Part shown: positions 1,870 to 25,230 of the stretch, in pieces | Layout of the letters: each line of letters begins with the position of its first letter | Numbering within the stretch: position 1 is the first letter of the stretch | Assembly: GCA_032622095.1 (NCBI GenBank) | Contig: CP136062.1 | Coordinates: 54,727,849-54,791,848 of the forward strand | DNA: 64,000 nt | Source: Siphonodentalium dalli | Lineage: Eukaryota > Mollusca > Scaphopoda > Gadilida > Siphonodentaliidae | Direction: 5' to 3' | Position numbers and translations under genes: made by a program | The notes under the pieces: generated by a model | What the model was told of the DNA's origin: nothing | Seen by the model: only the letters and a program-made list of their open reading frames with translations | Databases searched by the model: none

Positions 1870-2167
1870 ATGCTGATGCAATTATTTATATTAACATCCA
1901 TCATCTCGCTCGGTGTTGGGTTCGTCCAGGGGGACCGAGCCGGGTACAACACGAGCTACGAGAGTCAACATGCCAACAACTCGTCAATCAATAAAACATC
2001 AACCAAACATTCAACCAATAAAACATCAACCGAACATTCAACCACAGACGATTCTACCAGCGACCACAAACAATGCGACGACAAAGCGACTTCAACGCGC
2101 CATGTCATCGTGGAACACGGGGACTTCACTGCGTATGTGGTGGAGTCGGAATATCTGGACAAGCCAA
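1870..2167 (+). CDS. Exon 1 of TSP1-FReD gene: signal peptide and Ser/Thr-rich region
   Basis: The ATG at 1870 opens a typical secretory signal: a hydrophobic stretch (residues 5-19, LFILTSIISLGVGFV) and a likely cleavage after Gly21. The mature part is rich in Ser/Thr with N-glycosylation sequons at Asn27, 36, 37, 41 and 50, a small internal repeat (KTSTKHSTN/KTSTEHST), then a more structured tail. I end the exon at 2167 because CCAA|GTAACT gives a phase-1 donor, the phase required by the TSP1 exons downstream; exon 10923-11090 uses the same CCAA|GT form. If it is not spliced there, the frame stops after 103 residues and this would be a short secreted peptide. The link to the TSP1 exons rests on strand, phase and order, not on transcripts. 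Confidence 0.6.
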
Positions 2168-2195
2168 GTAACTGCATATGACTTCATATATTTTT

Positions 2196-2690
2196 AGATC
2201 ATGCCATGAATCTCTACTCTGGCTGACTCCCGTAGTGATCACATTCCACCAATACAAACCTTGGAACTTTTTGAAGTTTTGACAGGGAACCTGATATAAA
2301 ATCGAAAAAATAACGCGGGGAATATATTTCTTAATTGTTATCTGTTTCGTAATAATGTACTTCACTGCAGGTGAAGGTCTCAACTCGAAATTTCACGATT
2401 TAAGTGAATTTGCGAGCGATATTGCATCGCGTCGCATACAATTGCTGTTTATTGCGATATCGGCTTTTACAAGTCAGAGAAAAGCACGCAATTTTGACTT
2501 GGGACATTCACTTACAGTGAAGTACATTATTAAGGAAAAGATAACAACTAAGAAATATATTCCCCGTGTTATGTTTTCGACTTTTTAGATTCCCTCCCTG
2601 TCAATACTTCAAAAAGTTCCCAGGTTTTGTACTGGTGGAACATGATCTCTACGGGCGTCAGCCAGAGTAGAGATTCATGGCATGATGAAC
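2196..2690. repeat. Foldback element of about 0.5 kb (copy 1)
   Basis: The two ends are inverted copies: the left reads 'atgccatgaatctctactctgg' region and the right 'ccagagtagagattcatggc' region, with further arms around 'cgcggggaatatatttct'. A diverged second copy is at 56445-56910. It sits in the intron after exon 1, starting about 30 bp past the proposed donor. No ORF of note. Confidence 0.75.
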
Positions 2691-2741
2691 TATATTGTAT
2701 CCTTAAATTGAGAGAGAACAGAGCAGGAAATATACATTCAT

Positions 2742-3184
2742 AGGTACTCAATCCGACCAGCCGCTCCTAAATTACTATTTCTTTGGTATCGGGTGTTAAC
2801 AAATATTTGATTCTAGTCGAGGAACCTATACCCATCAAAGCTCAGAGTGATCAGATATCGATTTTTAAAGTTTGTTATTTCAATTGTTTGTGGGCCAGAA
2901 ACACGTGTTCAAATGGACGGTCTTGCAGATAAAGATGGATAACTCTAAAATCAAGTGGTTATTATATCACAACTTGATTGTATTAGAGTAATCCATCTTT
3001 ATCTGCACGACCGTACGTTTTACCTCGTGTTTCAGGCCCACAATCAATTGAAATAACAAACTTCAAAAATCGATATCTGATCAATCTCAGCTTTGATGGG
3101 TTGGTTCCGACTCGAATAAAATATATTTTACCACCGAAGCCAAAGAAATAGTAATTTAGGAGCGTCTGATAGGATTGAGTACCT
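2742..3184. mobile_element. TTAA foldback element (ends AGGTACTCAATCC), copy 1
   Basis: A near-complete palindrome: the left arm starts aggtactcaatccga and the right arm ends ggattgagtacct, followed by TTAA at 3185-3188. The left target site has decayed to TCAT. The arms share 'ttactatttctttgg', 'gagtcgaggaac' and 'gatcagatatcgattttt'. The same family with intact TTAA on both sides is at 27513-27992. It has no coding capacity; mobility would have to be supplied in trans, probably by a piggyBac-like transposase. Confidence 0.85.
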
Positions 3185-3196
3185 TTAAGACGTTAA

Positions 3197-3502
3197 AGGG
3201 GTAGTGTATACTAAATCCAACCGTTTATGGGACCATCTCATTTTATACTCAACAGAATATATGCAAACAAATGAATGAATTTGAGCCATGGATTAGTGCA
3301 AAATACACAAATATTGTCTGTGAACGATAACACAATATGGTAATTATATTGAAAATGAATTTATGACTAGAGTATAATTACCATATATGAGTGTATTTTC
3401 ACTAATCCACGGCTCAAATTTATTCATTTGTTGCATATATTCTGTTCAGGGTAAAAGGAGAAATGGTCTCATAAATGGCCTGATTTAGTATACAATATCC
3501 CT
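3197..3502. mobile_element. TTAA foldback element (ends AGGGGTAGTGTATACT)
   Basis: TTAA at 3193-3196 and 3503-3506 flanks inverted ends AGGGGTAGTGTATACTAAAT (left) and its imperfect mirror (right, ATTTAGTATACAATATCCCT). The arms continue through 'gaacagaatatatgca'-type sequence to a central loop near 3340. It abuts the preceding TTAA element with only about 8 bp between the two sites, so two related insertions sit side by side in this intron. Confidence 0.8.
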
Positions 3503-3874
3503 TTAAGTTTGAACCAATCCTCATTTGTGTAGAAATGGAACTCTATACTAGTGTATATCGCGTTGCGTGCTTTTGACATGCCATAATTAACCTGATTATA
3601 CGTTTACCTCAGATTTTAGCAATTTGATTGCTAATTATGGCATATAGTTCAAATTTTAACAGAAAAAATATCTAAATCGATATCATTTTATCCAAAAAAA
3701 AGGAAAAGAAAAAAAAAAGAAGCACATAATTTTATTTGTGATAGTTATTTCATTTTTTTACAATGACGTTTATCCAATATTTCCTCAAAAATGAAGAAAT
3801 ATATGTCTCAATAGGCCTCAATCTACATCTTGCTCGGCTTATATTGTGCATGAAAGCTACCCTTTCTGCTACAG

Positions 3875-4042
3875 TTAATGGACAGTGGTCTCGCTGGCAC
3901 GACTCAGAATGCCTTGTGACTTGTGGTATCGGCTACGTTGTAAGCATTCGGACTTGCACAGACCCATCACCCTCTAATGGGGGAGAACAGTGCAATGGAA
4001 AATCGATGCAGATGGCGACCTGCTGGAAACCAAGCTGCCCAG
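3875..4042 (+). CDS. TSP1 domain exon 1 (of eight)
   Basis: Acceptor 'tctgctacag' precedes 3875 and donor CCAG|GTGAGT follows 4042; 168 nt, phase 1 at both ends. It encodes one thrombospondin type 1 repeat: a WSRW motif at residues 5-8 of the module, then CLVTCGIGY, RTC, SNGGEQC and the terminal SCPG, with the six cysteines of the family. TSP1 modules act outside the cell, binding glycans and proteins, and the WxxW motif is a known C-mannosylation site. This is the most diverged of the eight repeats (SIRTC where the others have RTRTC). It is immediately followed by an array that repeats its own 3' end and donor. Confidence in the domain is high; assignment to one gene is by phase and order. 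Confidence 0.85.
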
Positions 4043-4402
4043 GTGAGTCCAAACTACGCGGCAGAGTTATCTCCCCGCTATGTTTGATCAGGCCAACCCG
4101 ACCAGGCAAGTCCTTAACTACGCGATAGAGTTATCCCCCCGCCATGTTTGACTAAGCCAAGCTGCCCAGGTGAGTCAAAACTGCACGACAGAGTTATCTC
4201 CCCCGCTGTGATTGATCAAGCCATGTTACCCAGGTGAGTACAAACTACACAGCGTGGGAGATAACATTGCTGTGATTGATCAAGTCAAGATACCCAGGTG
4301 AGTCCAAACTACATGATAGATTTTTCTCCCCCGCTGTGATTGATCAAGCCAAGCTACACAGGCGAGTCCAAACATCACAGCAAAGTTATCTCTCCCGACT
4401 GT
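4031..4402 (+). repeat. 63-64 bp minisatellite spanning an exon end and splice donor
   Basis: Six units begin at 4031, 4094, 4158, 4222, 4286 and 4350. Each repeats the last codons of the TSP1 exon, the donor and about 45 bp of intron (caagctgcccaggtgagt, then 'aactac..gagttatctcccc'). Units 1, 3, 4 and 5 keep a GTGAGT donor; unit 2 has GCAAGT and unit 6 GCGAGT. Related single copies of the intron part lie downstream of other TSP1 exons (about 10317, 11340 and 19088), so the unit derives from shared intron sequence. Confidence 0.9.
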
Positions 4403-5082
4403 TTTGTTTTTGTTTTTTTGTTTTTACATCACAATGATTTCGATATGCTAAATCTAATTATTGAAGAATGTCATTCTATTTTCACATGTAATCGTTACCG
4501 TCGTTATGAAATTAATTTTATTTCGCATGAAAGCATATTGGAAGCATTGCTTCCCACTCGACCAATCATGCAGACTGGTATAGTCCAAGAATCCTTCGAC
4601 GTAATCTGGCTAGTGGAATCGGAAGTAATAATTCTGGTTCACGTCGTAGGACAGTCGCCTTATGGATTTAAAATCACAAATGATGGTTATAAAATGTCAC
4701 AATCGTGAAAGTAACCCACTCTATTCCACACAATAGACAACATTACATTTGCCAACTCCGCAAGAGTTGCCAACTGAAAGTAATACTTTAATATCAAAAA
4801 TATATAATCTCACAATATCGACATTAAAAAACCACGTTCTCATTTGGCCTCGCGCAGGAGTACATCATTATGATCGTAAGATATCACTCTTTCTGATAAA
4901 TGCAATATTTTGTATTTATTGTTATGATAAAGTCGATTTAAATTAGCGAAATATCCCGCCATTGGATCTGGACATAAAGTCAGCTCTACAATAGTAAGGC
5001 AACCATACTTTCACTTTACGTCAACGGAAACTTGAACAAGCAACATGCACGTGTTAGGGACAACTATATTACCATTAAGAAA
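4403..5082. other. Intronic stretch without recognised feature
   Basis: AT-rich sequence between the minisatellite and the next repeat. An ORF at 4340-4708 and one at 4749-4946 show no domain and no conserved boundary. I see nothing functional. Confidence 0.5.
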
Positions 5083-5262
5083 TAACTCTTGTTTCGATTA
5101 AGGTTATGAAGTTATAACAAAAATGTTTGAAGATAACTTATATAACGCGGGTAGCGCTGTTATAGACAATTTATCTTCAAACTTTTCGATTATAACTCAT
5201 AACCTTAATCGAAACGAGAGTTATTTTTTATAATTTAATCCGTCATTTCACAGGAGAACCAC
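5083..5262. repeat. Foldback repeat (cttgtttcgattaaggtt arms)
   Basis: The arms 'ctcttgtttcgattaaggtt' near 5088 and its complement 'aaccttaatcgaaacgagag' near 5202 form a hairpin of about 140 bp. A related copy is at 59600-59775, including the shared tail 'atttcacaagagaacc'. The large TIR element starting at 5265 is inserted directly next to it. Confidence 0.7.
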
Positions 5263-5357
5263 TAGTCAGGTTCGAAATGGAATAAAAGTGAAAGGTGCGG
5301 GCATTTTTCTTTCAAACGCTGTTGAGAATTGTTTCTAATGGTATATATTTCAAAAAC

Positions 5358-6140
5358 CAATGTTGGCAATTCGACAAATATTATTTCTGACCCAAAATAA
5401 CAATTCAAAATGGCCGCCATCAGAACAAAGTCTAGATTTTCGTTTACTGTTATATGTTGTTCTAAGACATTTGAATATTATGCATTTCCGTACTTTCGAA
5501 CGAATTATGACAAGAGACACTATACACAGAACACATGTGGTAACTTAAAGTGAACATGTTTGACATTTAACCCAATTTATGCCCAAAAATGACAAAAAAC
5601 GCGAATTTTATAAATTATTGCGGTCTTAAATGGCAGAAAGTGAAGTATGCCGGAAATATATCCTTCAAATAGTTTAGACAGTTATGTCTAAATGAAATGT
5701 GTATTCTGATTCCAAAAAAGAATGTGGCAACTCGACAAATAATTATTTCTGACCTAAAATGACAATTCAAAATGGCCACCAACAGAACAAAGTCTGGATT
5801 TTCGTTTACTGTTATATGTTGTTCTAAGACGTTTGAATATTATGCATTCCGTACTTTCGAACGAATTGTGACAGGAGACACAATACACAGAACATATGTG
5901 GTAATTTAAAGTGAACATGTTTGACATTTAACCCAATTTATGCCCAAAAATGACAAAAAACGCGAATTTTAGAAATTATTGCGGTCTAAAAAGGCAGAAA
6001 GTGAAGTATGCCGGAAATATATCCTTCAAATGGTTTAGAAAGTTGTGTCTAAATGTAATTTGTATTCTGATTCTAAAAAACAATGATGGCAACTCGACAA
6101 ATAATTATTTCTGACCTAAAATGACAATTCAAAATGGCCA
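5358..6140. repeat. Left subterminal tandem array (361-bp unit)
   Basis: Units start at 5358, 5720 and 6081 with the motif 'ggcaactcgacaaataatta'. Each contains 'gccaccatcagaacaaagtc'-like and 'ttcgaacgaattatgaca'-like text. The same unit recurs in reverse orientation at 7240-8060, so the array belongs to the element and not to the host intron. Confidence 0.85.
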
Positions 6141-6188
6141 ATGCGACACAATTTGCCATCATATAGCCAAAAATGGTCACAAAAAGCC

Positions 6189-7049
6189 TTATTTATTATT
6201 GCAGTCAGTTCCACAATTGCAGAATGGTGTGCAGAGTAACTCTGATTTTCTGCATGTACACCTTGCTGTTAGACACCCCTTCTTGTACCCACATTTGATT
6301 ATTTCGAGACATGATTTTGGAATGGGTTCCAGTGACATCATGGTTGGATCTAATCGACCATTTTCTTCTTTCCATCCCATTGTCGAAGGATCCAGTAATG
6401 TTTGCACAGGAATGGTTACTTGTTTCCAAACTAAAACCTGGTAGTTTGTTTGCAAAGGGTGGTAATGAAATGAGTCACTGGTTGGTGGAAGCTTTTCAGG
6501 ATATTCAGTCCGAGTGAATATCCTGAATCTTGCATTGTTGAGTTTTGCAGCTGAAACTCCATACAACTTGCATACAAAATGTTCAGCACTTTCAATTGTT
6601 TCAGTGGATATTGCAATATTACATATACCCTTTAAGAGTTCACAACATTCCAGGTAAATCTTCCATGCGGATCGGTTAGACACCCCATATATGAACGAAG
6701 TGGAATCACACCCGTTAAAGCATGAAACGCTAGAATATAGTTCAGAGCGTCGGTCGATATTTGGGTGGCAACATCCCTGATGGGTATAATTTTAGGGCTT
6801 TTGGAAGTTCCAGCCATCATGAACACATCACAATCTGCAGGTAATTTGTCTAGGTAACCAAGCAATAACACTAGAACATCGACGTCCCCACTTACCGCAA
6901 TAACTTGTTTCAGATTGCACCCCATGCTGGCATCAAATGCATGAATGATAAGTCTAGTGTAAGCCTCTTCGTGATTAGACTCTAACCCTTTCAAGTCTGT
7001 TCCATCTACCGAACAATCTACTCTGGAATCTTCTGGTAACCCCCCATGC

Positions 7050-7083
<34 letters not shown>

Positions 7084-7147
7084 GTAACACCTTCTGTTTT
7101 CGCTTTGGTAACAAGTTCTCGAGACAATAAGGCTTTTTTGTGACCAT
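6189..7147 (-). pseudogene. Transposon-borne protein with HEE..TR, D-x-D and Cys-rich C-terminal motifs, frameshifted
   Basis: Two overlapping minus-strand frames form one gene. The upstream part (7147 to 6632) carries NHEEAYTR, then SGDVDVLVLL about 28 residues on, then FHALTG. The downstream part (6683 to 6189) continues with AWKIYLECCELLKG and ends in a Cys-rich block (KCGYKKGC, RCTCRKSELLC, CNCGTDCNN) resembling a CXC (tesmin/TSO1-like) motif. This combination is a repetitive protein family I know from many invertebrate genomes, usually unannotated; the acidic motifs suggest a metal-dependent nuclease fold, which is inference. The break falls just after the FHALTG motif. A TTG run at 7050-7083 gives a leucine homopolymer. 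The gene lies inside the long-TIR element and is probably dead. Confidence 0.7.
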
Positions 7148-7239
7148 TTTTGGCTACATGATGGCAAATTGTGTCGCATTTGGGTGTTGATGAACCAGTT
7201 CCATAATATTACTGATGATTTTCGAATTTTTAACTGATT

Positions 7240-8060
7240 ATTATACTAGTCAGCCATTTTGAATTGTCATTTTAGGTTAGAAATAATTATTTGTTGAGTT
7301 GTCAACATTGTTGTTGTGGAATCAGAATACCAATTACATTTAGGCACAACTGTCTAAACCATTTGAAGAATATATTTCCGGCATACTTGACTTTCTACCA
7401 TTTAAGACCGCAATAATGTATAAAATTTGCATTTTTTGTCATTTTTGGGCATAAATTGGGTTAATTGTCAAACATTTTCACTTTAAATTACCACAAATGT
7501 TCTGTGTATAGTGTCTCTTGTCACAATTCGTTCGAAAGTACGGAAACGCACAATATTCAAACGTCTTAGAACAACATATAACAGTAAACGAAAATCTAGA
7601 CTTTGTTCTGATGGCGGCCATTTTGAATTGTCATTTTGGTTCAGAAATAATAATTTGTCGAATTGCCAACATTGTTTTTTGGAATTAGATTAGAAATTAC
7701 ATTTAGACACAACTGTCTGTACCATTTGAGGGATACGTTTTTAGCATATTTCACTTTCTGCCATTTAAGACCGTAATAATTTATAAAATTCGCGTTTTTT
7801 GTCATATTTTGGGCATAAATGGGGTTACATGTCAAACATGTTCACTTTAAATTACCACATATGTTCTGTGTATACTTCTTCTTGTTCCAATTCGTTTGAA
7901 AGTACGGAAATACTCAATATTCGAACGTCTTATAGCAATACATAACAACAATCGTAAAGTTAGACTTTGTTTTGATAGCGGCCATTTTGAATGGCCATTT
8001 TTGACCAGAAATAATAATTTTTAAACTTGCCAACATTTGGGTTTTGAAATCAGCATAACA
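7240..8060. repeat. Right subterminal tandem array, inverted
   Basis: Reverse-complement copies of the 361-bp unit, spaced about 362 bp ('gccaacattg' near 7300, 7665 and 8025). It mirrors the left array and supports reading 5265-8149 as one element. Confidence 0.85.
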
Positions 8061-8149
8061 AATACCTTTAGAAACAATTCTCAAAAGCTTTTGAAAGAAA
8101 AATGCCCGCACCTTTGTTTCTAGAAGGTTTTTAGATTTTCGAACCTGAC

Positions 8150-8600
8150 TACACCAACAGGTATATTATCAGTTGGAAGTATAACGGGCATATAACATTG
8201 AGACTCTTTCCGACGAAAAAGACACGTCAAGTTGAAAGCGACACCTGTCACTGAAAACTCGTCATCGAACATCGGCAATTCAACAGTTTTGATAGGCTGG
8301 TCGCAACTGATCACGGGTCGCGTTCCACCGGGCAGCTGCTCCGAAATTTCATGTTAAATCGTTTCGAAAAGTTTCCATGTACATTTTAAGCCACGCGGTA
8401 TAGGTGTGGTCACTCGACGCTGTTGTCATTCTGTAGCTGGTAAAGTAATCACGAAATGTAGGTTATCGAGAAATAACCTAAATGGCCAAGTATGTGTCAA
8501 CCAATTGTTTTGCAGTATTCCGTGGGTTGACAGCTTATAATTAAATTATTGATACAGGTATTAAACTCCAAGAATCTCATTTCATTGTGGTTCGTGTTAA
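8150..8600. other. Stretch between the long-TIR element and the next TSP1 exon
   Basis: On the minus strand 8337-8120 an ORF of about 70 codons (contains FNLTCLFRRKESQC and MPVILPTDN) could be an exon scrap, but I see no convincing splice sites and it runs into the element end. The remainder is ordinary AT-rich intron. Confidence 0.35.
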
Positions 8601-8607
8601 TTTTAAG

Positions 8608-8775
8608 TTGACGGAGGTTGGTCTCGATGGAAGGACGGTGTATGCAGTAGAACGTGTGGCCTTGGGAAGCAGACGCGGACCAGGACGTGCACACGACCGA
8701 CTCCGACACTCGGCGGGAAGGATTGTCCGGATTCAGACGGAGATGTGGCGCTGTGTGAACAATCAGCATGTCCAG
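8608..8775 (+). CDS. TSP1 domain exon 2, subfamily GLGKQ
   Basis: Acceptor 'aattttaag' before 8608 and donor CCAG|GTACCG after 8775; 168 nt, phase 1 at both ends. The frame that follows the phase-1 acceptor reads GGWSRWKDGVCSRTCGLG, then RTRTCTRPTPTLGGKDC and LCEQSACPG: the complete six-cysteine TSP1 pattern with a WSRW motif. It is easy to miss because ORFs in other frames cover it. The closest relative is the exon at 15897-16064 (same CGLGK, LGGKDCPDS and LCEQS blocks). A donor-spanning 45-bp minisatellite follows. Confidence 0.88.
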
Positions 8776-9070
8776 GTACCGGACATACATTACCATTCAA
8801 ACCCATGCGTCTCGATCCAGGTACCAGACATACATTACCATTCAAACTCATGCGTCTCGATCCAGGTACCAGACATACATTACCATTCAAACCCATGCGT
8901 CTCGATCCAGGTACCAGACATACATTACCATTCAAACCCATGCGTCTCGATCCAGGTACCAGACATACAATACCATTAAAACCCATGCGTCTCGATCTGG
9001 CCGACTCCACACCACGGCTATCGGACACACAATACCATTCAAACTCATGCGTCTCGATCAGGCCGTCTCC
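8772..9070 (+). repeat. 45-bp minisatellite spanning a splice donor
   Basis: Near-perfect units start with CCAGGTACC at 8772, 8817, 8862, 8907 and 8952, followed by two diverged units without the donor (about 8990-9070). Core: 'catacattaccattcaaa' then 'catgcgtctcgatc'. The period is 15 codons and the TSP1 frame stays open through the array, to a stop near 9104, so each repeated donor would be in frame. The downstream intron is homologous to that after 16064. Confidence 0.92.
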
Positions 9071-10020
9071 ACATCACGGCTATTTCTGCCGGGTCTCTGG
9101 ATAAATAGCAATTGTTTTATGTGTTTAACAAGAACAAAAAACGAAAAATGTTAGAGGAATCAGGGAGCTAAATGTGTTCTAGAGTCGGGGAACGAGTACA
9201 CCGTGGAATGCTAAAGGTGAAGGTAACTGAAGAATGACCTTCACCTGATACATGCGACACGTTATTAAAGGATGACATCGCGTTTATTTGATTTGTACAT
9301 CATATCTAAATAATTTAACCTGGTGAATGAATGGGGGAATGGATTTTTGTGAGCGGGAAATTTATTTAACTAGCTGCTGTAGTTCTGGATTTGTCCAGAT
9401 CAAATTTGGCTGTGGGATAGCCCTGTCGTACATTTGGGGATTTATTTTAAAAAGTAAACACATGACCTATGATTTTTCGTCCATTTTCGTGATCAACTGG
9501 TGTCAATCTAGCCGGGTAAACATCACTGATATGGCCTGCAGGCTTCAATTCAGTGAATTTGGCCGAAACGTTAACACTGTCGCCTATGGGAAACCATTTA
9601 GTTCCGTGATTCCTAGAACATAATTATATGTATAGCTTTTAAGCCATGAACTATGTTCACAAAGTAGTGCGATGTTTTTCCACATCCACTGCCCGTTTGA
9701 AAGACCAGTTACTCTGATTCTGCTGATCTATTCTGAATCATTATATTTTTCACATTGCATGAAGAATTTGAGAATTAAAACTATTTGTTTTTTATGAAAT
9801 ATATAATTGGCACATATAACGTGTGGAAGATAAATTATATGCCTCAAAATACACAATTGCACAACTGATGACTGTGGAAAATGGGCATATACATATTGGT
9901 ATCTGTGAAGAAACACTGTTATATAATTATGTTGGTTGTTATTTTTTTTATTCGAACATTACTAATCTTAGTTTCAACGGTTGTTACACCTGTTTATGTT
10001 CAATGTATAAACTGTGCTAA
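9071..10020. other. Intronic stretch without recognised feature
   Basis: AT-rich intron. ORFs at 9327-9623 and 9823-10020 show no domain. 'aggtgaaggt'/'accttcacct' near 9218-9245 makes a short hairpin. Nothing else stands out. Confidence 0.5.
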
Positions 10021-10030
10021 ATAGTTCCAG

Positions 10031-10198
10031 TTGATGGATCATGGTCGGAATAGATCCACAGTGTCTGTAGTGGTAGTTGCGGTAAGGGGATCCAGATTCG
10101 GACACGAACCTGTAACAACCCCGCACCAACGAACGGAGGGAATTACTGTCAGGGTAACAACACTGAGTTGATTGATTGCTGGAATACACCATGTCCAG
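10031..10198 (+). pseudogene. TSP1 domain exon 3 with an in-frame TAG
   Basis: Acceptor 'aaatagttccag', donor CCAG|GTATTT, 168 nt, phase 1-1. All six cysteines and the motifs CSGSCGKGIQ, RTRTCNNPAPTNGGNYC and WNTPCPG are intact, but codon 7 of the full codons, the conserved second Trp of WSEW, is TAG (10051-10053) where the sister exons have TGG. One G-to-A change explains it. Since the exon length is a multiple of three with matching phases, skipping it would leave the rest of the protein in frame. It could be an allele, a sequencing error, or an exon decaying under alternative splicing. Confidence 0.85.
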
Positions 10199-10316
10199 GT
10201 ATTTATCGATCCAAATATATCATATCACTGTTTTCCTTACAGTTTGAATGTGTTAGAGGTGCAGCCAAAACTATTTTGCTAATTTCTCAATACGATCACA
10301 TTCCTTGGTTACATAT

Positions 10317-11130
10317 GCCCAAACTACACGATAGAGTTATCTCCCTATTGGCGATCAATCGAATCGAGTTTTATTATCAATTATGTTAGAGTTTCACTAC
10401 CCTTGTCAGATTCGGATCTAACAGGAGTGATAATAGGTGGTGGGGTGATATAAACGACCCTATCGGTAATTACAATTTGGAAAATAAATCATACAATTAT
10501 AGCGCGAGTAACAACGATGCGGATTAATATATTTCATTACTGGCAATAATAGTTTTTACAGCAATTCCGAAATTTACAAAGGGATGCGTTAAGAAAAAGT
10601 AGTTATTTTTTTATCTAAAGTTATAATGTTTACGGTATTTTGCCAATTTTGGTGATTAAAGCAAAATCCAGCATCTGTATAACACTCAAGAACATATATT
10701 TTAAACTATATTTTAATAACAGTGGCGCTGGTGTCTGCAAAACAACAAAGATAGCCAAACACAGCTATTATTAAAATAGTTAACAATATACATGTTTTGA
10801 ATGTTTTATGCACATACAGTTGATTGTTGTTCTCCTCCCCCAACACTACGACCGTTAGCTTCAACACATGGGCTTCTCGAATTGAATATGTGCAATGTCT
10901 AAACTGTGCTTAATAGTTTCAGTTGATGGCTCTTGGTCGGAATGGGTCAACAGCGCCTGTAGCGGTAGTTGCGGTAAGGGGATCCAACTTCGAACACGAA
11001 CTTGTAACAACCCCACACCAACCAACGGAGGAAATTACTGTCAGAGAAACAATACTGAGATGATCGATTGCTGGAATACACCGTGTCCAAGTATTTATCG
11101 AATCCAAATATATCATTACGGTGGTTAAAA
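10317..11130. repeat. Segmental duplication unit including a TSP1 exon (copy 1)
   Basis: Intron text from about 10340 ('tcgaatcgagttttattatc', 'gtcagattcggatctaa', 'ggtaattacaattt') through the exon at 10923 is repeated at about 12386-13360. Substitutions and small indels are spread over both copies, so this is older than the 17.1/18.0-kb duplication. Confidence 0.85.
10923..11090 (+). CDS. TSP1 domain exon 4, subfamily GKGIQ
   Basis: Acceptor 'gcttaatagtttcag', 168 nt, phase 1-1. It encodes GSWSEWVNSACSGSCGKG, RTRTCNNPTPTNGGNYC and CWNTPCPS with six cysteines and a WSEW motif. The donor is CCAA|GTATTT, so the split codon would begin with A instead of G (Ser or another residue in place of Gly) and the site is weaker than in the sister exons. 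NNT near the C-terminal third is a glycosylation sequon. It is closest to the exons at 10031 and 13154. Confidence 0.85.
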
Positions 11131-12230: not shown

Positions 12231-12381
12231 GATCCATCATGACCTGGGGGTGTGGGATGGGAAAATCTCACCCTCGGGGCCAGATATTTGGTCTGGACAC
12301 TCGGCAAGCCTCGTATCCGGCCCAAATATCTGGCCCCTCGGGTGAGATTTTTCCATCCCACACCCCATGGCATGATGGATA
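12231..12381. repeat. Foldback of about 150 bp (gatccatcatgacctggggg arms)
   Basis: The left arm 12231-12293 (atccatcatg, ggtgtgggatgg, aaatctcaccc, ggggccagatatttgg) is mirrored at 12315-12381. The loop is about 20 bp. GC-richer than its surroundings; probably a short MITE, since no second copy is seen here. Confidence 0.75.
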
Positions 12382-12385
12382 ATAT

Positions 12386-13360
12386 TAATCTCCCTAGTTG
12401 CGATTAATCGAATCGAGTTTTATTATCAACTCTATCAGAGTTTTACTACCCTTGTCAGATTCGGATCTAATAGGAGTGATAACAGGCGTTGGGGTGATCA
12501 AAACGACCCTGTCGGTAATTACAATTTAGAAAATAAATTATACAATTATATCGGGAAGTAACAGCGATGCGGATTAATATATTTCCATACTGGCAATAAT
12601 AGTTTTTACCGCAATTCCGAAATTTGCAAAGAGATTCTGTTAAGAAAAAGTAGTTATTTTTCATCCAAATTTGTAATTGTTACGGTATGTTGCTAATTTT
12701 GGTGATTAAACCAGCGTCTGTATAACATTCAAGAACATATATTTTAAACTATATTTTAATAGTAGTGGCTCTGTTTTTTGCAAAACAACAAGGATAGCTA
12801 AACAGAGCTATTATTAAACTATTTCACAATATACATGTTTTTGAATATTTTATGCAAGTGGTTTTCTTCTATTTGTTCAGATGAGCCAAACGTCGAAAAT
12901 GACAAATTTAATTGAAATAACGGTACTTTTTCCTTAATAACATCGTTTATCCCTCCCAACATTATAAATATCCAAAAGAGCCCACCAGTATCAGAGCAAA
13001 TTAGCAGGACCACTTAACGAGGTGTCAAATATGGACAGATGGACTATGGACAGATCGGTTTTCTTTCGTATTCACACTATGACCGTTAGCGTCAACGCAC
13101 ATCCTTCTCGAATTGTACGTGTACAATGTATAGGCTGTGCTTAATAGTTTCAGTTGATGGCTCTTGGTCGGAATGGATCCACAGTGTCTGTAGTGGTAGT
13201 TGCGGTAAGGGGATCCAGATTCGGACACGAACTTGTAACAACCCCGCTCCAAGCCACGGAGGGAATTACTGTCAGGGAAACAATACTGGGATGACCGATT
13301 GCACGAATAAACCATGTCCAGGTATTTATCGACTCCAAATATATCATTACGGTGCTTAAA
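12386..13360. repeat. Segmental duplication unit including a TSP1 exon (copy 2)
   Basis: Counterpart of 10317-11130 (see there). The match resumes right after the foldback at 12231-12381 and runs through the exon at 13154 into the following 'atatatcattacggtg'. Confidence 0.85.
13154..13321 (+). CDS. TSP1 domain exon 5, subfamily GKGIQ
   Basis: Acceptor 'gcttaatagtttcag', donor CCAG|GTATTT, 168 nt, phase 1-1. It encodes GSWSEWIHSVCSGSCGKG, RTRTCNNPAPSHGGNYC and CTNKPCPG: six cysteines and the WSEW motif. The Trp usually following the fifth Cys (CWN in the sisters) is Thr here. It matches the nonsense exon at 10031 closely and shows what that exon looked like before its stop. Confidence 0.87.
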
Positions 13361-13379
13361 GACGTGTAATCGGTATACC

Positions 13380-15890: not shown

Positions 15891-15896
15891 TTATAG

Positions 15897-16064
15897 TTGA
15901 CGGAGGCTGGTCTAGTTGGAGGGACGGTGGATGCAGTACTACATGTGGCCTTGGGAAACAGATGCGGACGAGAACGTGTACACAACCGACACCAGCACTC
16001 GGCGGGAAAGATTGTCCGGATTCAAATTCAGATCTGTCGCTCTGCGAACAATCATCATGTCCAG
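15897..16064 (+). CDS. TSP1 domain exon 6, subfamily GLGKQ
   Basis: Acceptor 'gttaatttatag', donor CCAG|GTACCA, 168 nt, phase 1-1. It encodes GGWSSWRDGGCSTTCGLG, RTRTCTQPTPALGGKDC and LCEQSSCPG: six cysteines and a WSSW motif. It is the close sister of 8608-8775, and the intron after it is homologous too (CCAGGTACCA repeated 62 bp later at 16123, 'caaacccatgcatgtc'). Together with the order of the other subfamilies this supports a block duplication within the gene. Confidence 0.88.
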
Positions 16065-16245
16065 GTACCACACTTATATAGCACATTTCTATGTATATAC
16101 CTGTTCGCCCGCCTCTCTGGGACCAGGTACCACATTCATACTATTCAAACCCATGCATGTCAAACTGGCCGACACAACCACATTATGGCTGTTTCGTATG
16201 CCTGTCTGGCTAATAACATAATGTTTATGAAGAACAAAACATAAA

Positions 16246-16975: not shown

Positions 16976-17132
16976 AATGTGTGTACATAGCGTTTAAGCC
17001 CAAAATAATTGACTTCACAAAACGATATACATATATCCCATTTCTACTATTTCATGAGCATCAGCGTTTGTTAATTGTTGTTGCCAAGAAAAGGGATATA
17101 ACAATTATATTACTCATAACTGTGATTAGTCT

Positions 17133-17650
17133 TGTTTTGTACGAGTAAGTCCTTCCTATAATGCCGATGTACATTATATACAGGTTGTTATCGATGGATG
17201 TCCTGCTCATGTTTATGACAATGTATAGACTGTTATAAATATTTCCAGTTGATGGCTCTTGGTCGGAATGGATCAACAACACATGTAGTGTAAGTTGCGG
17301 TAAGGGGACCCAGATCCGGAATAGAACGTGCAACAGCCCCGAACCAAGCAACGGAGGGAACTATTGCCATGGCAACCACACTGCGACGACCGAATGCTGG
17401 AACTCGCCGTGTCCAGGTATTTATCAACTCAAAATAAATCATTACCGTGTTTAAAGATGTATTCAGGGATCCGTGACATATTTATGACACCAACTTCACT
17501 TCACTATAAAAATCCCACCAAAAGACACTATCTCGTTTGATATTTAATTTTCTATCGATTTATTTTATATAGATTCAATGTATTAGAAGGAAAGTAATAA
17601 TTACAATACCGCCAATTTTCTAAGAACATGGGATGGAGGTTACTGGATAG
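17133..17650 (+). repeat. 891-bp-offset tandem duplication, copy 1
   Basis: From 'ttgtacgagtaa' to 'ttactggatagactttgtccgtg' this matches 18024-18540 with few substitutions. It contains TSP1 exon 7, whose 168 nt are identical to exon 8. The similarity extends through 5' and 3' introns, so this is a segmental event and not exon shuffling. Confidence 0.93.
17249..17416 (+). CDS. TSP1 domain exon 7, subfamily GKGTQ
   Basis: Acceptor 'ataaatatttccag', donor CCAG|GTATTT, 168 nt, phase 1-1. It encodes GSWSEWINNTCSVSCGKG, RNRTCNSPEPSNGGNYC and CWNSPCPG with six cysteines and WSEW. Three sequons (NNT, NRT, NHT) make this repeat potentially glycan-rich. Nucleotide-identical to exon 8. Confidence 0.88.
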
Positions 17651-18020
17651 ACTTTGTCCGTGTGTATATATGTCTGTCCTTCTGTATATATGTCTGTCCG
17701 TGTGTTTATCCTTCTGTCCGGGTATAGATGTCTCTTTCTTTATTTATCTGAACAGTTTCGTGTTTTGCCAGTCTGCACATATATCTCAGTCATGGGTTAT
17801 GGAATGCAATTTGGTATGGATGTTGATCATTATGACTGCTTAAATTCAAAAGAGTGTCCAAATTCCGTCTGTACAAACATATCATATTGTAACTTGGATG
17901 TCTTTGTCAGTTGGTATTCTGACCAGAGCTTGGGAGAAAGGATACGCACATATTGTGGAGTTCGTCCATTCTTTTTCATGGATAGGATGTAAATAGAATG
18001 GATAGGGGTTTTGGAAATCA
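17651..18020. other. Insert between the two duplicated TSP1 segments
   Basis: Starts with tgtctgtcc/ctgtatatatg low-complexity sequence, then an open frame of about 75 codons (17789-17992; contains YGMQFGMDVDHYDC and CPNSVC) preceded by 'atatatctcag'. Its end is minisatellite-derived and there is no recognisable domain, so I do not call it an exon. Confidence 0.35.
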
Positions 18021-18023
18021 TTC

Positions 18024-18540
18024 TGTTTTGTACGAGTAAATCCTTCCTATATTGCCGATGTACATTATATACAGGTTGTTATCGATGGATGTCCTGCTCA
18101 TGTTTATGACAATGTATAGACTGTTATAAATATTTCCAGTTGATGGCTCTTGGTCGGAATGGATCAACAACACATGTAGTGTAAGTTGCGGTAAGGGGAC
18201 CCAGATCCGGAATAGAACGTGCAACAGCCCCGAACCAAGCAACGGAGGGAACTATTGCCATGGCAACCACACTGCGACGACCGAATGCTGGAACTCGCCG
18301 TGTCCAGGTATTTATCAACTCAAAATAAATCATTACCGTGTTTAAAGATGTATTCAGGGATCCGTGACATATTTTTGACACCAACTTCACTTCACTATAA
18401 AAATCCCACAAAAAGACACTCTCTCGTTTGAAATTTATTTTTCTATCGATTTATTTTATATAGATTCAATGTTTTAGAAGGAAAATAATAATTACAATAC
18501 CGCCAATTTTCTAAGAACATGAGGTGGAGATTACTGGATA
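18024..18540 (+). repeat. 891-bp-offset tandem duplication, copy 2
   Basis: See 17133-17650. The two copies differ at scattered intron sites (for example catatttatgac against catatttttgac, and cccaccaaaag against cccacaaaaag) but not in the exon. Confidence 0.93.
18140..18307 (+). CDS. TSP1 domain exon 8, subfamily GKGTQ
   Basis: Identical at all 168 positions to 17249-17416, same acceptor and donor. It is the last TSP1 exon before the FReD exon. Its phase-1 donor joins in frame to the phase-1 acceptor at 24590, giving CPD/CKGLK across the junction. The intron of 6.3 kb is full of repeats, and no further exon was seen in it. Confidence 0.88.
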
Positions 18541-21417
18541 GACTTTGTCCGTGTATATGTCTGTCTGACCGTCCGTCTTTCCGTTCGGGCATATATCTCT
18601 CCTTCCTTATTTATCTGAACAGTTTGGTGTTTAACTCCACTAGCAATGGTCATACTTGAATGCTTATTGTAATATATCAGGATTGTTCGAAGTATATACT
18701 GACAGGTTTCGTTCATGTATTTTGTCAGAGTTATTTCCCTGTTTTGGACTTGTAGCAAGTTTTCCAACTGTGCATCGCATTTAGCATTCTTACTCAAGTA
18801 CCAACAGTTGGCTTGGAGATCTTTTTGGAATCGTGATAGGCAAGTGTGCGAGAAAGGATACAATGCCATGGGTGTTATGCTTTGGTTTTCCTCAGAGTGA
18901 CAGACCTTGGAATTCATACACATATTTAGCTTTACCCACTCTCTAAACTGAGCGCTCGGGATTGCCCTTGATTCAGATCTTGGTTCATTCCTGACCATGT
19001 TTCAATTTTGCAATGTTGGAGTGTGCCACCACCCGAAGTGCAACCTCTTGGCTTGATAATATTTAACTAACTAAATTACATTATTTGGTACGAATAGGTC
19101 CAAACTACATGACAAGAGTTTTCTTCCTCTCTACACACGGATTACGTACGGGGGGGGGGAGTAATTTGATACTAATTTGTAGGCTCTATAACATAAAGTG
19201 ATGGGTTCAATTTAATAAAAAATCACGTTAAGTCGTAGGGACACGAAAGAGCGTTGTATTGCTCACTAGGCTACACCAGATTTACAACTTCCACAAAATG
19301 CGCACTAAAAATTGACGACAGCAACACCGGTCTGACCTTGACCGATAGCATATTAATCAACTCAGCTTATTATTTATTAACAACTTATAGTCTTAATTAA
19401 TCAACTTAATTATTTTGATTATTAAAGATTAACTTGATTAATCTATTTAGTTATATTGGTTAATCGACTTAGCAATCTTGACTCTATAGTATCTGGATAG
19501 GCCTGGTGAAATATTAACGATATTTTATGCATGTGCATGCAATGTCGATTCTGGCTCAATTGGCCACTAATTCGCCCTCTAAAATACACGATAATGATAC
19601 AGGTGACCAATTCCAAGACTATATGAGTGTTGCCGAGAAAAACCGTTGTCTCCTCCACCAACTAACATCGTTGTGGTATGACTTAGCGATCGAATGGATA
19701 TGAACGCCAATAACCAAAACAAACCTATTCTTCCGAACAGGACGCCCATATTGGCGGCCATTTTATGTAATTATATTGAAAGCAATTAACATTCGGTATG
19801 AAACGAGATACAGCAATAAGCATGTCAAAACAATAGCGCAGATGCATCAATTCTGCACAGGATAAAACCCCATATCGGAAACTTCAGTTATATATGGCTG
19901 CCATATTGGAAACCATTTTCTATAAATACAGGTTCCCATGGCTACATAGTGGCATTGCGCTATGATTTAGAACTTTGTTATTTTCTAGAGATGAACACTA
20001 ACCGAATGATCTATATTATATAGTATCTCTATGTAAGTCATGCAGACATAGACCCAAGTTCGTCAACGTATGATCTGGCGGTACTTTTTACGCTTGGGGG
20101 GGGGGGTAAGTTTAGCGTTATTGCGTCCATATGATTGGTCCTTCCATCCAAAATTTAAAAAAATTCTGTGTAGGCCTATTAATATGCCTGAAGTAATTTT
20201 AGACGAAAAATGATCCCAAAATGTGTTAACAATTCGAGCTGTGATCAGTTTTCATGATACGATTGCTTGAAAAAAAAAAGACACATTTTTTTGCGATAAG
20301 TCAACATTTTTCGGGCAAATATCGCAACAGATTTCTGTCTCCTTTGATGCTATTCGTGTTTTTGGCCATCAGCTTAATTATGTTTAAAATCAATTATAAT
20401 GTCATTTTTTAAATTATGTTTAGTCAATGTGAGCAAAATCTAAAATTTTGAGATGTTTCTCCCAAAATTGCAATAAAATATTTTTTTTCTGGGTCGCGAC
20501 AATCGTATTTTTTATTTGTCCACCGTACGATATGCGCCAGGTGCCATGCAGTGTCAAATTATTTTTTCTGAAATCCGTACCGGCCTATTTCTTAAAAAGT
20601 CTGTCAATGATCCAAAACAAAACGTAATGTTAAAAATTCGCGGGACTCTTTGGCCCCACAAAATTAAAGATACGGGCAGCCTTCCCGGTTGGGTATAGCT
20701 GTTAAAATAGTCACATCCGCTAAAACCGCCATAAACAGAAAGACATATATTGTTCTTATGCCAATCATAAATATCGCGCACATTGCATGTTATTGTATTT
20801 GTACGCTGTGTTAGGTAAACAAACATAAAAACGTTACAGAACCAATTGTTTATAGACAAACACTCGGAACTACCGGATCGTTCAATGAAAAAGTCGGAGA
20901 TAAATCGAATTCAAATCACACCAAATTGTATTTTAATCGACCCATCCTACCCGCTGTCAGTTCAAAATCCAGCTAATCCACGTTACTTCATGATTGGGAA
21001 ATTATCAGACACGAAACGTGTACATAATAATTGTTCTTGCAAAGAGATGAATATTTTTCAATCTATTTAGTATTTTCTCCTAACCTATATAATTATGGTA
21101 ATACATACCAAATAAGAAATTTACTAGATGAAAGTAGTGTGAGTTGTAAGTTGTAGACGCACAAAATTAAGGGTTTAACAACCGATGTATAATGCGCGCG
21201 AATCTAAATAAGGAAATTACGCAATATCATGACTCTGCTTCTTAACAATTCACTGCGCTTTTTGCGAGAAACTAAACAACACTCGACCTTCATTTTCTCT
21301 GACACAAAGCGTGTTTTGTGAATAATATCGCATTCATATCATCATTATGGTATACTATTGGTATATTCTTGAGAAAGTTGTCATAATCTGATAACTGTTA
21401 TTTCTAAATTATAACCT
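18541..21417. other. Long intronic stretch without a supported gene
   Basis: Contains a tgtctgtctgacc-type low-complexity patch at 18550-18600, an isolated TSP1-intron motif at about 19088 ('ccaaactacatgacaagag'), G runs at about 19150 and 20096, and a minus-strand ORF of 155 codons (18998-18531) with scattered cysteines but no recognised domain. ORFs at 20516-21070 are likewise unsupported. Confidence 0.5.
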
Positions 21418-21648
21418 ACTAGCAGGTTAGCCCGCCACTGGCGTGGTTGGTCAGAAACATGACATTTTTTAATTTTTTTTATATTAATTTAATGTTTTTT
21501 AAATTTAATTTAGGTTTTTTTGAATTATAAAAATTAAATAAATATTAAAAAATTCAAAAAAACCTAAATTTAATTTAAAAAACATTAAATTAAAAAAAAA
21601 ATGTCATGTTTCTGACCAACCACGCCAGTGGCGGGCTAACATGCTAGT
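21418..21648. mobile_element. Near-perfect palindrome with ACTAG/CTAGT ends (paired Helitron-like 3' ends)
   Basis: Begins ACTAGCAGGTTAGCCCGCC and ends GGCGGGCTAACATGCTAGT. The arms extend about 110 bp through 'ccactggcgtggttggtcag' to an A/T-only centre ('aaatttaatttaggttttt' and mirror). Each end has a small GC hairpin just inside CTAGT, the layout of Helitron 3' termini, but here two such ends face outwards. Confidence 0.7.
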
Positions 21649-21789
21649 ATTTATTTAATTTGTATTCCAATTGACCTATTTATTTAATTTTTATTCTAAT
21701 TGACCCGATGAAATCCCCCCTTCCTAGGAACGACAGACAACGCATTCTTTGTTTTACTTTATTTTTTAACCTGCCCGTACCCGTCCTAA

Positions 21790-22195
21790 TGTCACAATAT
21801 TTCGAGCGATAACATTACATTGCATTGAAAACAAACGCTTCCCGTCGTGAAATCTCTCTACGATAACATTGCATTGAAAACAAACGCTTCCCTGTCGTGA
21901 AATCGCTCTGCATAATATTTCGAGTCTGCCGTACCCGTCCTAATGTCGTGAAATCTCTCTGCATTTCAATAAACGCTTCCCGTCGTGAAATCTCTCTACG
22001 ATAACATTGCATTGAAAACAAACGCTTCCCGTCGTGAAATCTCTCTGCATAATATTTCGAGTCTGTCGTACCCGTCCTAATGTCATGAAATCTCTCTGCA
22101 TAATATTTCGAGCGATAACATTGCATTGAATTGAAAACAAACGCTTTCCGTCGTGAAATCTCTCTGCATAATATTTCGAGCGACAGGCTACAATT
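21790..22195. repeat. Tandem array (gtcgtgaaatctctctgcat units)
   Basis: About eight imperfect units of about 50-65 bp built from 'cgtgaaatctctct', 'ataatatttcgag', 'gataacattgcattgaaa' and 'acaaacgcttcc'. The minus-strand ORF of 128 codons through it is a by-product of the repeat. Confidence 0.85.
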
Positions 22196-22439
22196 CGTCA
22201 TACAGATAAGTAGATAGCGAAAACGACGCTCTTTATATAGACACTGCGGAAAACGAACGCTCTTTATATATCAACGCTATTAACCCCGAAGTGCCGATTG
22301 CGGTGATTTTGATGATTGGGAAGGGAGAAACAGTGCTTTGAGGTTCTCCAAAACGCGACCACGGCGGTGTCCGTGGGATTATACACTTATATACGAAATT
22401 TCAACACAATCGAGCCAGCCGTTTTCGATTCTATAAAGT

Positions 22440-22440
<1 letters not shown>

Positions 22441-22513
<73 letters not shown>
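22441..22513. repeat. (CA)n(TA)n microsatellite
   Basis: About 11 CA followed by about 25 TA units. It directly precedes the start of a Helitron-like element (tctcatatatattttgaag), a common target context. Confidence 0.95.
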
Positions 22514-22516
<3 letters not shown>

Positions 22517-23061
22517 ATATATATTTTGAAGACCTCTGTCTGTCTGTCTGTCTGTTTGTTTGTTTGTCTGTCTGTTTGTCATTAATACAAATCTACGATT
22601 CTCGACCGATCGGGACGAAACTTGGTACGTGTGTGTAGTTGTCGTATTGGCGAGCCCGTGCGACGCCCATGCAGCGCATGCGCAGACGAGATCTCGGAAA
22701 CGGGTGGAGCTATCGACTTGAAATTTGCTATGTAAATGTATCTTGCCCCGGATACGAATTTTATCGGGTCGCCGAGCCCGTGCGACATCAGCTTCGCGCA
22801 TGCGCAGACGAGATCTCGGAAACGGGTGGAGCTATCGACTTGAAATTTGGTATGTGAATGTATCTTGCCCCGGATACGAATTGTATCGGGTCGTCGAGCC
22901 CGTGCGACGCCAGCTTCGCGCATGCGCAGACCAGATCTCGGAAACGGGTGGAGCTATCGACTTGAAATTTGGTTTACAGACCAGATCTCGGAAACGGGTG
23001 GAGCTATCGACTTGAAATTTGGTTTTTGAATAGCCCGGACAACGTCGGGCTCATCGGCTAG
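22511..23061 (+). mobile_element. Helitron-like non-autonomous element, left copy
   Basis: Starts tctcatatatattttgaag with a (TCTG)n stretch and ends in a GC hairpin (AGCCCGGACAACGTCGGGCT) plus catcggCTAGT. Inside are 122-bp tandem units (gagcccgtgcgac at 22652, 22774 and 22896) each with 'gagatctcggaaacgggtgg'. An inverted copy is at 23780-24347. TC start and hairpin plus CTAG-T end fit Helitrons; no Rep/helicase gene is present. Confidence 0.7.
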
Positions 23062-23737
23062 TCTATTATATATTTTGGAAGATCTGTGTGTGTGTGTGTC
23101 TGTCTGTAATCGATGGACTCGAAAACGGCCGAGCCGATTTCGATGAAACTTGGTATGTGGGGGTATTTTCGGGCAAGGAGTAACATAGGCCTATTAATTT
23201 TCAGATCCGAGGTAAACTTTTCACGTGCCGAGGTCAAATCTGTTTTTACGCTGTGTTACGGGACTTTCATTTGAGTTCGGTGCTTACAAATCGATTCGAA
23301 ACAGCGCGAATAATAAAATGCTTGTCATAATAATGACACTGTGAGAATCTTTCGTGTTTCCTCTTTCCAACGATATATAATGCGTATGTATCTGTTTTAG
23401 TTATCTGCCTCAATTATCAAGAAGAAGTGGTACTATCTTCCATCAGGATAAAAACAATGCGTAACTTCTATGACGTCGTTAGAGGTCATAACGTTAGATC
23501 ACGTTAACGCTTAACCGGCCGATGCATTTGACTGTTTAAGACGTCTTGGTGATATCTACTCTATACGGACGAAATTTGATGCATAGGGTATCTCGGTATC
23601 CGCTGGGCCGATTTCCCGGTATCCGCTGGGCCGTTTTCCACCATTTTTGGGGTGTTGGTGTTGGACCCCACCTGACCTTGACCTTCAAAATGGTCAATTC
23701 AAGGTCAAAGCCCGGACGAAGTCGGGTCACCTTCTAG
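23062..23737 (+). mobile_element. Second Helitron-like element between the inverted pair
   Basis: Begins tctattatatattttggaag with (TG)n/(TCTG)n and ends with hairpin CCCGGACGAAGTCGGG, tcacctt, CTAGT at 23734-23738. Its interior is unlike the flanking pair. It starts at the CTAGT end of the left copy, a head-to-tail arrangement. Confidence 0.65.
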
Positions 23738-23779
23738 TATATATATATATATATATACGGAAGTCTCAAAAGATATAGT

Positions 23780-24347
23780 ACTAGCCGATGAGCCCGACGT
23801 TGTCCGGGCTATTACAAAACCAAATTTCAAGTCGATAGCTCTACCCAGCCCGACGTTTTCCGGGCTATTCAAAAACCAAATTTCAAGTCGATAGCTCTAC
23901 CCGTTTCCGAGATCTAGTCTGCGCATGCGCGAATCTGGCGTCGCTCGGTCTCGGCGACCCGATAAAATTCGTATCTGGGGCAAGATACATTCACATACCA
24001 AATTTCAAGTCGATAGCTCCACCCGTTTCCGAGATCTCGTCTGCGCATGCGCGAAGCTGGCGTCGCACGGGCTCGGCGACCCGATAAAATTCGTATCCGG
24101 GGCAAGATACATTCACATAGCAAATTTCAAGTCGATAGCTCCACCCGTTTCCGAGATCTCGTCTGCGCATGCGCGAAGCGGGCGCCGCACGGGCTCACCA
24201 ATACGACAACGTCGACCGCCTGGTCAAACTACACGCACGTACCAAGTTTCGTCCCGATCGGTCGTGAATCGTAGATTTGTATTAATGACAGACAAACATA
24301 CAGACAAACAAACAGACAGAGGTCTTCAAAATATATATGAGATAGAT
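23780..24347 (-). mobile_element. Helitron-like non-autonomous element, inverted right copy
   Basis: Begins ACTAGccgatgagcccgacg and ends in cagacagaggtcttcaaaat, the reverse complement of the left copy at 22511-23061, with the same 122-bp internal units. The pair forms a 1.8-kb inverted repeat that could fold in a transcript of the host intron. Confidence 0.7.
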
Positions 24348-24589
24348 AGATAGACAACGAAGGCCGCCTACCCCTTTAATATTGGAACGTTTTGTACACC
24401 AGAAGAATATAATATCGTTCCATAGAGCCCATTAATATGAGGTACGATGGTCAGATAGCAATCCCACATGGAAACTTCGAGATAATATATTTAAACTTGG
24501 TGCTGGGGGAACTATATGGTTCTGCTGTCTAGAAATGCTGTTTACATATTTGAAGTCAGTGTTTCCCCGCATACTGTTTTCTGTTTCAG

Positions 24590-25230
24590 ACTGTAAAGGG
24601 TTGAAAGCAACAGGCGTTCTGACTGACGGTTCCTATAAAATCACACCAGGTGGCACTACAGAAGTCGATGTCGTTTGCGACATGACAACAGGCGAGGGCG
24701 GGTGGACTGTACTACAGCAAAGAAGAGACGGAACCACCAACTTTTACAGGAACTGGGCAGAGTATGAAAACGGATTTGGTGACCGTACCACAGTCGGAAA
24801 CTACTGGATCGGACTGAAGAACATTCACCAACTCTCTTCAAAAGGCACTACCGAGTTGTACGTCAAACTGACAACAGCAGGCGGACAGGAAAAATATGCT
24901 CGATATTCCAGCTTCAGTGTTGACGACGCTTCAAACAACTACGCTCTCCGCGTGTCAGGTTACAGCGGTGACGCGGGCGATTCTCTGAAATATCATAACG
25001 GGAAGCAGTTCAGCACGTTCGACAACGACCACACCCGATCTGGATGTTCCGTCACCCACTGTACCGTCACGTATCACGGGGCGTGGTGGTACGACTGCTG
25101 CCACTACAGTAACTTGAACGGAGAGTATCTAAACACAACGAGAGGAAGTGACCGTGGAATGAAGTGGTTCCACGACCTCCGCTCGAACTCTATGATGCAC
25201 ACCACGATGATGCTCCGCTCGGTTGGTTAA
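24590..25230 (+). CDS. Fibrinogen-related domain (FReD) terminal exon
   Basis: Acceptor 'tgttttctgtttcag', phase 1; stop TAA at 25228-25230; 213 codons plus two bases. The whole FReD is present: DCKGLKATGV start, VVCDMTTGEGGWTVLQQRRDG, WAEYENGFGD, NYWIGLKNIHQLS, ALRVSGYSGDAGDSL, then FSTFDNDHTRSGC and HGAWWYDCCHYSNLNGEY, ending NSMMHTTMMLRSVG. This is the ficolin/FREP/tenascin-type globular lectin fold, which binds acetylated sugars or proteins outside the cell. The calcium loop is reduced to DND compared with the usual longer acidic run, and an extra Cys (CC) follows WWYD. The last 12 codons before the stop were seeded into a 55-bp array downstream. It is predicted to be the C-terminus of the TSP1 protein; alternatively it could head its own transcript. 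Confidence 0.9.

Follow-up and report, generated by a model that had tools for sequence, protein, structure and literature searches.

One predicted gene joining a secreted TSP1 array to a fibrinogen-related head in the scaphopod Siphonodentalium dalli

Ten exons at positions 1870-25230 of a 64,000-nucleotide stretch of the Siphonodentalium dalli genome (the window; G000:C2:54727849-54791848) probably make up a single gene of ~23 kb. Judged from its sequence, it would encode a secreted glycoprotein in which a stalk of seven TSP1 repeats carries a C-terminal fibrinogen-related domain (FReD) as head, and the product would act as a recognition lectin. An initial annotation had already proposed one gene for the chain of signal peptide, TSP1 repeats and FReD, which the sequence supports. 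It had missed three things: an inverted partner gene that shares the window, a broader family of leader-TSP1 genes and how much the putative pocket varies.

All ten exons lie on the forward strand where they had first been placed, with agreeing phases and AG/GT borders. The leader exon (1870-2167) encodes the signal peptide and ends in a phase-1 donor. Eight TSP1 exons of 168 nucleotides follow, each of phase 1-1: exon 1 at 3875-4042, exon 2 at 8608-8775, exon 3 at 10031-10198, exon 4 at 10923-11090, exon 5 at 13154-13321, exon 6 at 15897-16064, exon 7 at 17249-17416 and exon 8 at 18140-18307. Exon 8 is identical to exon 7, the two lying within a tandemly duplicated block (544 nucleotides, 97%). 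The terminal exon (24590-25230) has a phase-1 acceptor and contains the FReD and the stop codon. The eight TSP1 exons of the initial annotation are thus present, but only seven are open, as exon 3 carries an in-frame TAG (WSE*) between intact splice sites. With this exon omitted, the signal exon, seven TSP1 exons and the FReD exon sum to 2115 nucleotides, a multiple of three, giving 704 residues and a stop. By our reading, the 49 cysteines of this chain divide into 42 in the TSP1 repeats, six in the FReD and one in the leader. Pfam TSP_1 exceeds its 21.6-bit cut-off in all five window TSP1 exons scanned (of eight), and Fibrinogen_C (PF00147) matches the FReD with an E-value of 1.9e-57 (195.1 bits, profile positions 5-219 of 221). 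Exon size, frame, splice sites, Pfam scores and the recurrence elsewhere in the genome of the signal exon-TSP1-FReD order place the set beyond chance, and an accidental assembly of unrelated exons was ruled out, since order and strand recur genome-wide.

The leader exon consists of a signal peptide, called on hydrophobicity alone, and an Asn/Ser/Thr-rich stretch, with five N-glycosylation sequons and one cysteine; it has no Pfam match. Leader exons share the conserved block KATSxRHxIVEHGDFTAYxVESEY, and the cysteine stands at the same place before it in nine of ten leader exons examined. Chains may be joined through this single residue, an intermolecular disulfide at Cys69 being a testable guess. 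The twelve bases that precede the leader ATG, tttcttttcaag (1858-1869), are kept in 9 of 10 paralogues (L049-L058) and are a possible acceptor of a 5'-untranslated exon. All eight window TSP1 exons encode six cysteines, and WxxW and CxxS/TCxxG, which we take to be the C-mannose and O-fucose sites of TSP1 repeats, occur in all seven open repeats. The stalk would keep the FReD head at a distance from the leader.

The order of these modules was followed through the 2.23-Gb genome (nine contigs). For the FReD, 150 of 690 candidates were scored, and family sizes are lower bounds; for T2- and T4-type TSP1 exons, the figures were 150 of 1548 and 150 of 1617. Proximity was counted from the T2- and T4-type matches (267 distinct places); those of the T1 and T7 types were inspected by eye. 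A TSP1 exon lies within 10 kb of eight of the 150 scored FReDs, each time upstream on the same strand, with zero cases in the other three configurations; within 20 kb the count is nine, again with none in other configurations. Similarly, a TSP1 exon is present within 10 kb of 32 of the 65 leader-exon places, always downstream on the same strand. This recurring order supports a single gene, albeit not conclusively, because neighbours that are duplicated together keep their order and the copies are not independent.

The same exons could instead be split between two neighbouring genes, the first coding for a TSP1-only secreted protein and ending after 18307, the second coding for the FReD, with a 5' exon of its own within 18307-24590 or a start at an in-frame ATG at 24535, but we consider this quite improbable. 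The ATG upstream of the window FReD frame does open a weakly hydrophobic leader; however, an in-frame upstream ATG precedes the FReD in just 10 of 29 copies examined, whereas a phase-1 AG acceptor is found in 29 of 29 (29 of 30 fetched loci, L024 being omitted as a match without a start), and a single-exon FReD gene starting at 24535 was accordingly disfavoured. Of the seven hydrophobic ATG frames within 18308-24589, one (19700, 29 codons) comes with a phase-1 donor and is open in the inverted paralogue as well, yet it begins MNANNQNKP and was judged unlike a signal peptide. At C2:54.55 Mb, moreover, the TSP1 donor and the FReD acceptor stand just ~1.4 kb apart, and that gap yielded no hydrophobic ATG frame accompanied by a phase-1 donor. 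Most leader-TSP1 loci are without a scored FReD, which favours two genes, as do related FReDs that have no TSP1 neighbour among the matches listed, so that FReD exons seem to have other partners.

A single gene also depends on what lies between exon 8 and the FReD. By the initial annotation, its proposal would fall if 18307-24590 held another exon containing a stop codon or a membrane-spanning segment. The inverted paralogue, whose FReD exon lies on the reverse strand of the window at 60744-61381 in a gene of the same order, allows the interval to be compared at the sequence level. Eight consensus phase 1-1 open candidate exons of 60-400 nucleotides occur in 18308-24589, and in none of the eight are the AG, the GT and the frame kept in the paralogue (3123 of 6282 bases alignable). 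An exon special to the window copy is possible. We also considered a hidden conserved exon and rejected it: in a tblastn comparison of 82 open stretches of the interval with the paralogue, matches appeared in every frame, many of them interrupted by gaps or stops though some short ones were open in both copies, and the splice-site comparison then retained none of the eight candidates over the 3123 bases aligned.

In a tree of FReDs (31 rows, six of them TSP1-linked), the linked copies cluster with the apparently unlinked L023 and L024, and three label changes are needed along it. One clade of TSP1-linked FReDs is not rejected (p-AU 0.25), and by these sequences a single gain of the TSP1-FReD union is possible.

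Besides the shared history of the copies, several observations weigh against a single, intact gene. When the distance is extended to 40 kb, same-strand TSP1 exons lie upstream of 9 of the 150 scored FReDs and downstream of four. L023 and L024 have no TSP1 exon nearby among the matches listed, though they fall near the linked group. Some short frames between TSP1 and FReD are open in both the window copy and the inverted paralogue, for example 18309-18428 (40 codons) and 20819-21067 (83 codons, with a three-residue gap). Of the nine TSP1-linked FReDs, four (C8:25.13, C5:3.31, C1:37.99 and C6:176.78 Mb) are broken or incomplete, the leader exon at C2:54.52 Mb was matched in two pieces, and an in-frame deletion has removed the CxxS/TCxxG sequon from one TSP1 repeat of the inverted neighbour. 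Finally, the window copy itself holds the nonsense exon at 10031-10198.

The significance of this exon can be weighed against the closest copies. A copy on chromosome 5 (G000:C5:234917392-234948288) is 97.7-99.9% identical to the window gene in the main pieces fetched, with nine TSP1 exon matches, and appears by sequence to be either a recent segmental duplication or a misplaced haplotype. A fourth copy (C5:234.877-234.893 Mb) has a leader, TSP1 exons and an 81% identical FReD. Of these four genes (the window gene, its inverted neighbour and the chromosome-5 pair), the window gene alone shows a stop in a TSP1 exon match. Exon 3 is probably skipped, which would cost no frame because the exon is symmetric in phase 1; otherwise, the window copy is decaying. 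That the window gene is dying, its product truncated by the TAG and only other copies working, is possible but doubtful. The TAG between intact splice sites, the near-identical chromosome-5 copy with no stop in its nine TSP1 exon matches and the frequency of broken relatives are consistent with decay, whereas the other nine exons are open, the FReDs of the window gene and the chromosome-5 copy share 99% identity and skipping would preserve the frame.

The FReD head was examined in an alignment of 25 sequences, 24 from the 30 fetched loci and one from L016, with the near-duplicate L020, L024 and the stop-bearing L035, L040, L047 and L048 omitted. The two calcium-site aspartates and the six cysteines are kept, Asp144 being present in 24 and Asp146 in 21 of the 25 sequences. 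Pocket positions were mapped through ficolin-2 by eye, with a ficolin-FIBCD1 residue correspondence that we partly presume. In FIBCD1, Tyr405, His415, Tyr431 and Ala432 are named among the contacts that bind acetyl groups (PMC3908420). At the equivalent places the window FReD has Tyr161 and His171, but Ser186-Asp187 where Tyr-Ala is expected. Among the 25 FReDs, Arg occupies position 161 in 12, Glu in six and Tyr in four; at position 171, Tyr stands in nine, Ser in six and His in five; and positions 186 and 187 hold nine and eight different residues. Mean column entropy peaks at 181-200 (1.76) and 141-160 (1.33), with other blocks at 0.5-1.0.

Substitution rates point to the same region. Between the window FReD and that of its inverted neighbour, dN/dS is 0.35 overall, 0.21 for residues 1-141 and 0.45 for residues 142-212. 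Nine FReD pairs were compared, the ninth without a synonymous change, and in seven of the eight informative pairs dN/dS is higher in residues 142-212 than in 1-141 (0.42-1.02 versus 0.21-0.78). This suggests that change near the putative pocket is relaxed or diversifying, without proving positive selection. The FReD would have a pocket, stabilised by calcium, that binds a carbohydrate or some other surface ligand, and with the contact residues of the pocket diversified among paralogues, the copies would recognise different targets. Three results speak against this part of the reading. The pair L028-L033 is reversed (0.12 in residues 142-212 versus 0.35 in 1-141), dN/dS in the C-terminal third is not clearly above 1 in any of the nine pairs, and the 25 FReDs do not conserve the Tyr-Ala pair of the acetyl pocket, leaving acetyl-sugar binding unsupported.

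A single gene could also encode a matrix or adhesion protein with a tenascin-like role in a tissue or biomineral matrix in place of a recognition lectin. TSP1 arrays are common in matrix proteins, and a single-sequence search ranks tenascin-R and tenascin-C first. However, a profile of the 25 FReDs searched against the PDB at 1e-30 puts ficolin-2 first (at 1e-60 there was no match), and the large FReD expansion and the variable pocket positions fit recognition better. A matrix role is therefore unlikely in our view, and by sequence the head is a ficolin-type FReD.

The gene appears to be one branch of a larger family. Matches to the leader exon, some partial, occur at 65 places on all nine contigs (106 of 106 candidates scored), and three other leader exons are 99-100% identical to that of the window. 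T2- or T4-type TSP1 exons lie within 40 kb downstream at 39 of the 65 places, and by eye T1-type exons stand beside many of them. Only eight leader loci continue to one of the 150 scored FReDs, and one of these eight loci, at C1:37.93 Mb, spans ~60 kb; a ninth TSP1-FReD pair, at C6:176.78 Mb, is without a leader match. Leader-TSP1 loci that have no scored FReD include those at C5:57.53, C2:37.71 and C1:98.46 Mb. A search with Pfam Fibrinogen_C (150 of 677 candidates scored) revealed no further FReD beside leader-TSP1 loci by eye. With 39 leaders near TSP1 exons and eight with a scored FReD, the TSP1-FReD genes would be one branch of the leader-TSP1 family. A dense plus-strand TSP1 cluster at G000:C3:161.59-161.82 Mb includes the strongest genome match listed.

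Probably, a phase-1 FReD exon was joined to a leader-TSP1 gene and the union was then duplicated. TSP1 exons would have been gained and lost afterwards, six being found in the inverted neighbour and nine in the closest chromosome-5 copy. More tentatively, these genes may form a modular recognition family, with a common leader and first TSP1 exon, phase-1 TSP1 arrays that are gained and lost, and exchangeable C-terminal heads. The FReD would be one such head, with a diversified pocket, and the leader and 5' flank are near-identical between neighbouring copies in the inverted repeat.

The window gene and its inverted neighbour converge tail to tail inside this large inverted repeat. The FReD of the neighbour is 86-88% identical to that of the window gene, and the genome search places its leader and six TSP1 exons beyond the window on the reverse strand (G000:C2:54796909-54812548), in the order leader-T1-T2-T6-T7-T7-T7-FReD. 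No second leader-type exon was found between its leader and FReD. The two leader exons are 99% identical. In window coordinates continued beyond its ends, the repeat on G000:C2 pairs -22304 to 391 with 85187 to 118026. Over about 21 kb of 5' flank the two arms agree at 99.4%, and across the leader region at about 97-99.5%; the gene bodies align in colinear pieces at only about 86-91%. This pattern of sequence identity suggests that the 5' flank and leader were recently duplicated or converted. Two further FReDs, with 49% identity to the window FReD, occupy mirror positions on the two sides of the repeat, at C2:54700500 (L016:2652-3275) and 54851283 (end of L018).

Behind the window FReD, a 55-nucleotide minisatellite of 20.8 copies (25185-26330, forward strand) derives from the final coding bases of the domain, many units still reading as NSMMHTTMMLRSVG, and three copies of the unit stand behind the inverted FReD (60634-60798, reverse strand). 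The forward strand of the window also contains transposase remains at 46770-47864, with helix-turn-helix and DDE_3 matches and judged Tc1/mariner-like, as well as, at 34186-35389, two open frames (190 and 245 codons) that overlap and have no Pfam match. In the genome as a whole, a search for the molluscan haemocyanin domain as a taxon marker had no match, nor had the control genomes, so that it carries no information on the taxon.

We class the window gene among FReD proteins whose phase-1 partner modules have been shuffled. Lectins of the FReD type make up a main immune family of invertebrates, and their partner modules are thought to set multimerisation and action. The initial annotation knew of no described protein of this architecture, and searches of the open-access literature aimed at the combination likewise showed us no description of TSP1 repeats and a FReD in one chain, which is not proof of absence. 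Ficolins, FIBCD1 and tachylectin-5A share with the window copy the FReD, by sequence, together with the calcium-site aspartates and the Cys-His motif. Collagen or membrane regions belong to the ficolin- and FIBCD1-type proteins, whereas the window gene has TSP1 exons in their place; it also lacks the conserved pocket Tyr-Ala, and by our reading of the alignment cysteines 152 and 169 are additional.

Among molluscs, the FReD proteins described are FREPs, GREPs, CREPs, FReM (EGF-like and FReD), a PAN/Apple variant and single FReDs (PMC7588048, PMC8878817). The FREPs (VIgL) of heterobranch snails have one or two IgSF domains and a FReD (PMC7588048, PMC8878817) and resemble the window gene in combining N-terminal modules with a C-terminal fibrinogen domain in a multigene family. 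They differ in having IgSF domains where the window gene has TSP1 exons; no IgSF domain is present among its exons upstream of the FReD, where the leader has no Pfam match and the rest are TSP1, the introns not having been scanned. FReM, the PAN/Apple-bearing FREP and the single FReDs share the FReD, and the texts name no TSP1 partner for them. The tenascins of chordates likewise have an N-terminal region, a modular stalk and a single C-terminal FReD, but their stalks are made of EGF and FN3 domains (PMC11401434) and not of TSP1 repeats.

A close parallel lies in cnidarians. Rhamnospondin (Rsp) of Hydractinia has eight TSP1 repeats and Tsrp2 of Hydra has 11, each with a lectin domain, and a proposed role of Rsp is to bind microbes that come in through the mouth (PMC4820225, PMC5446238). 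Like the predicted window protein, these are secreted many-TSP1 chains with a lectin domain, but the cnidarian head is a rhamnose/galactose-binding domain, whereas that of the window is Fibrinogen_C. The soluble recognition role claimed initially is supported by analogy only, and the gene product is most likely a secreted long-stalk recognition lectin comparable to rhamnospondin. The near-identical leaders and diverged heads of the copies would offer a ready set for the evolution of ligand specificity by duplication. A TSP1 array as FReD partner would parallel the cnidarian TSP1-lectins with an unrelated head, which suggests that a TSP1 stalk with a lectin head was built more than once.

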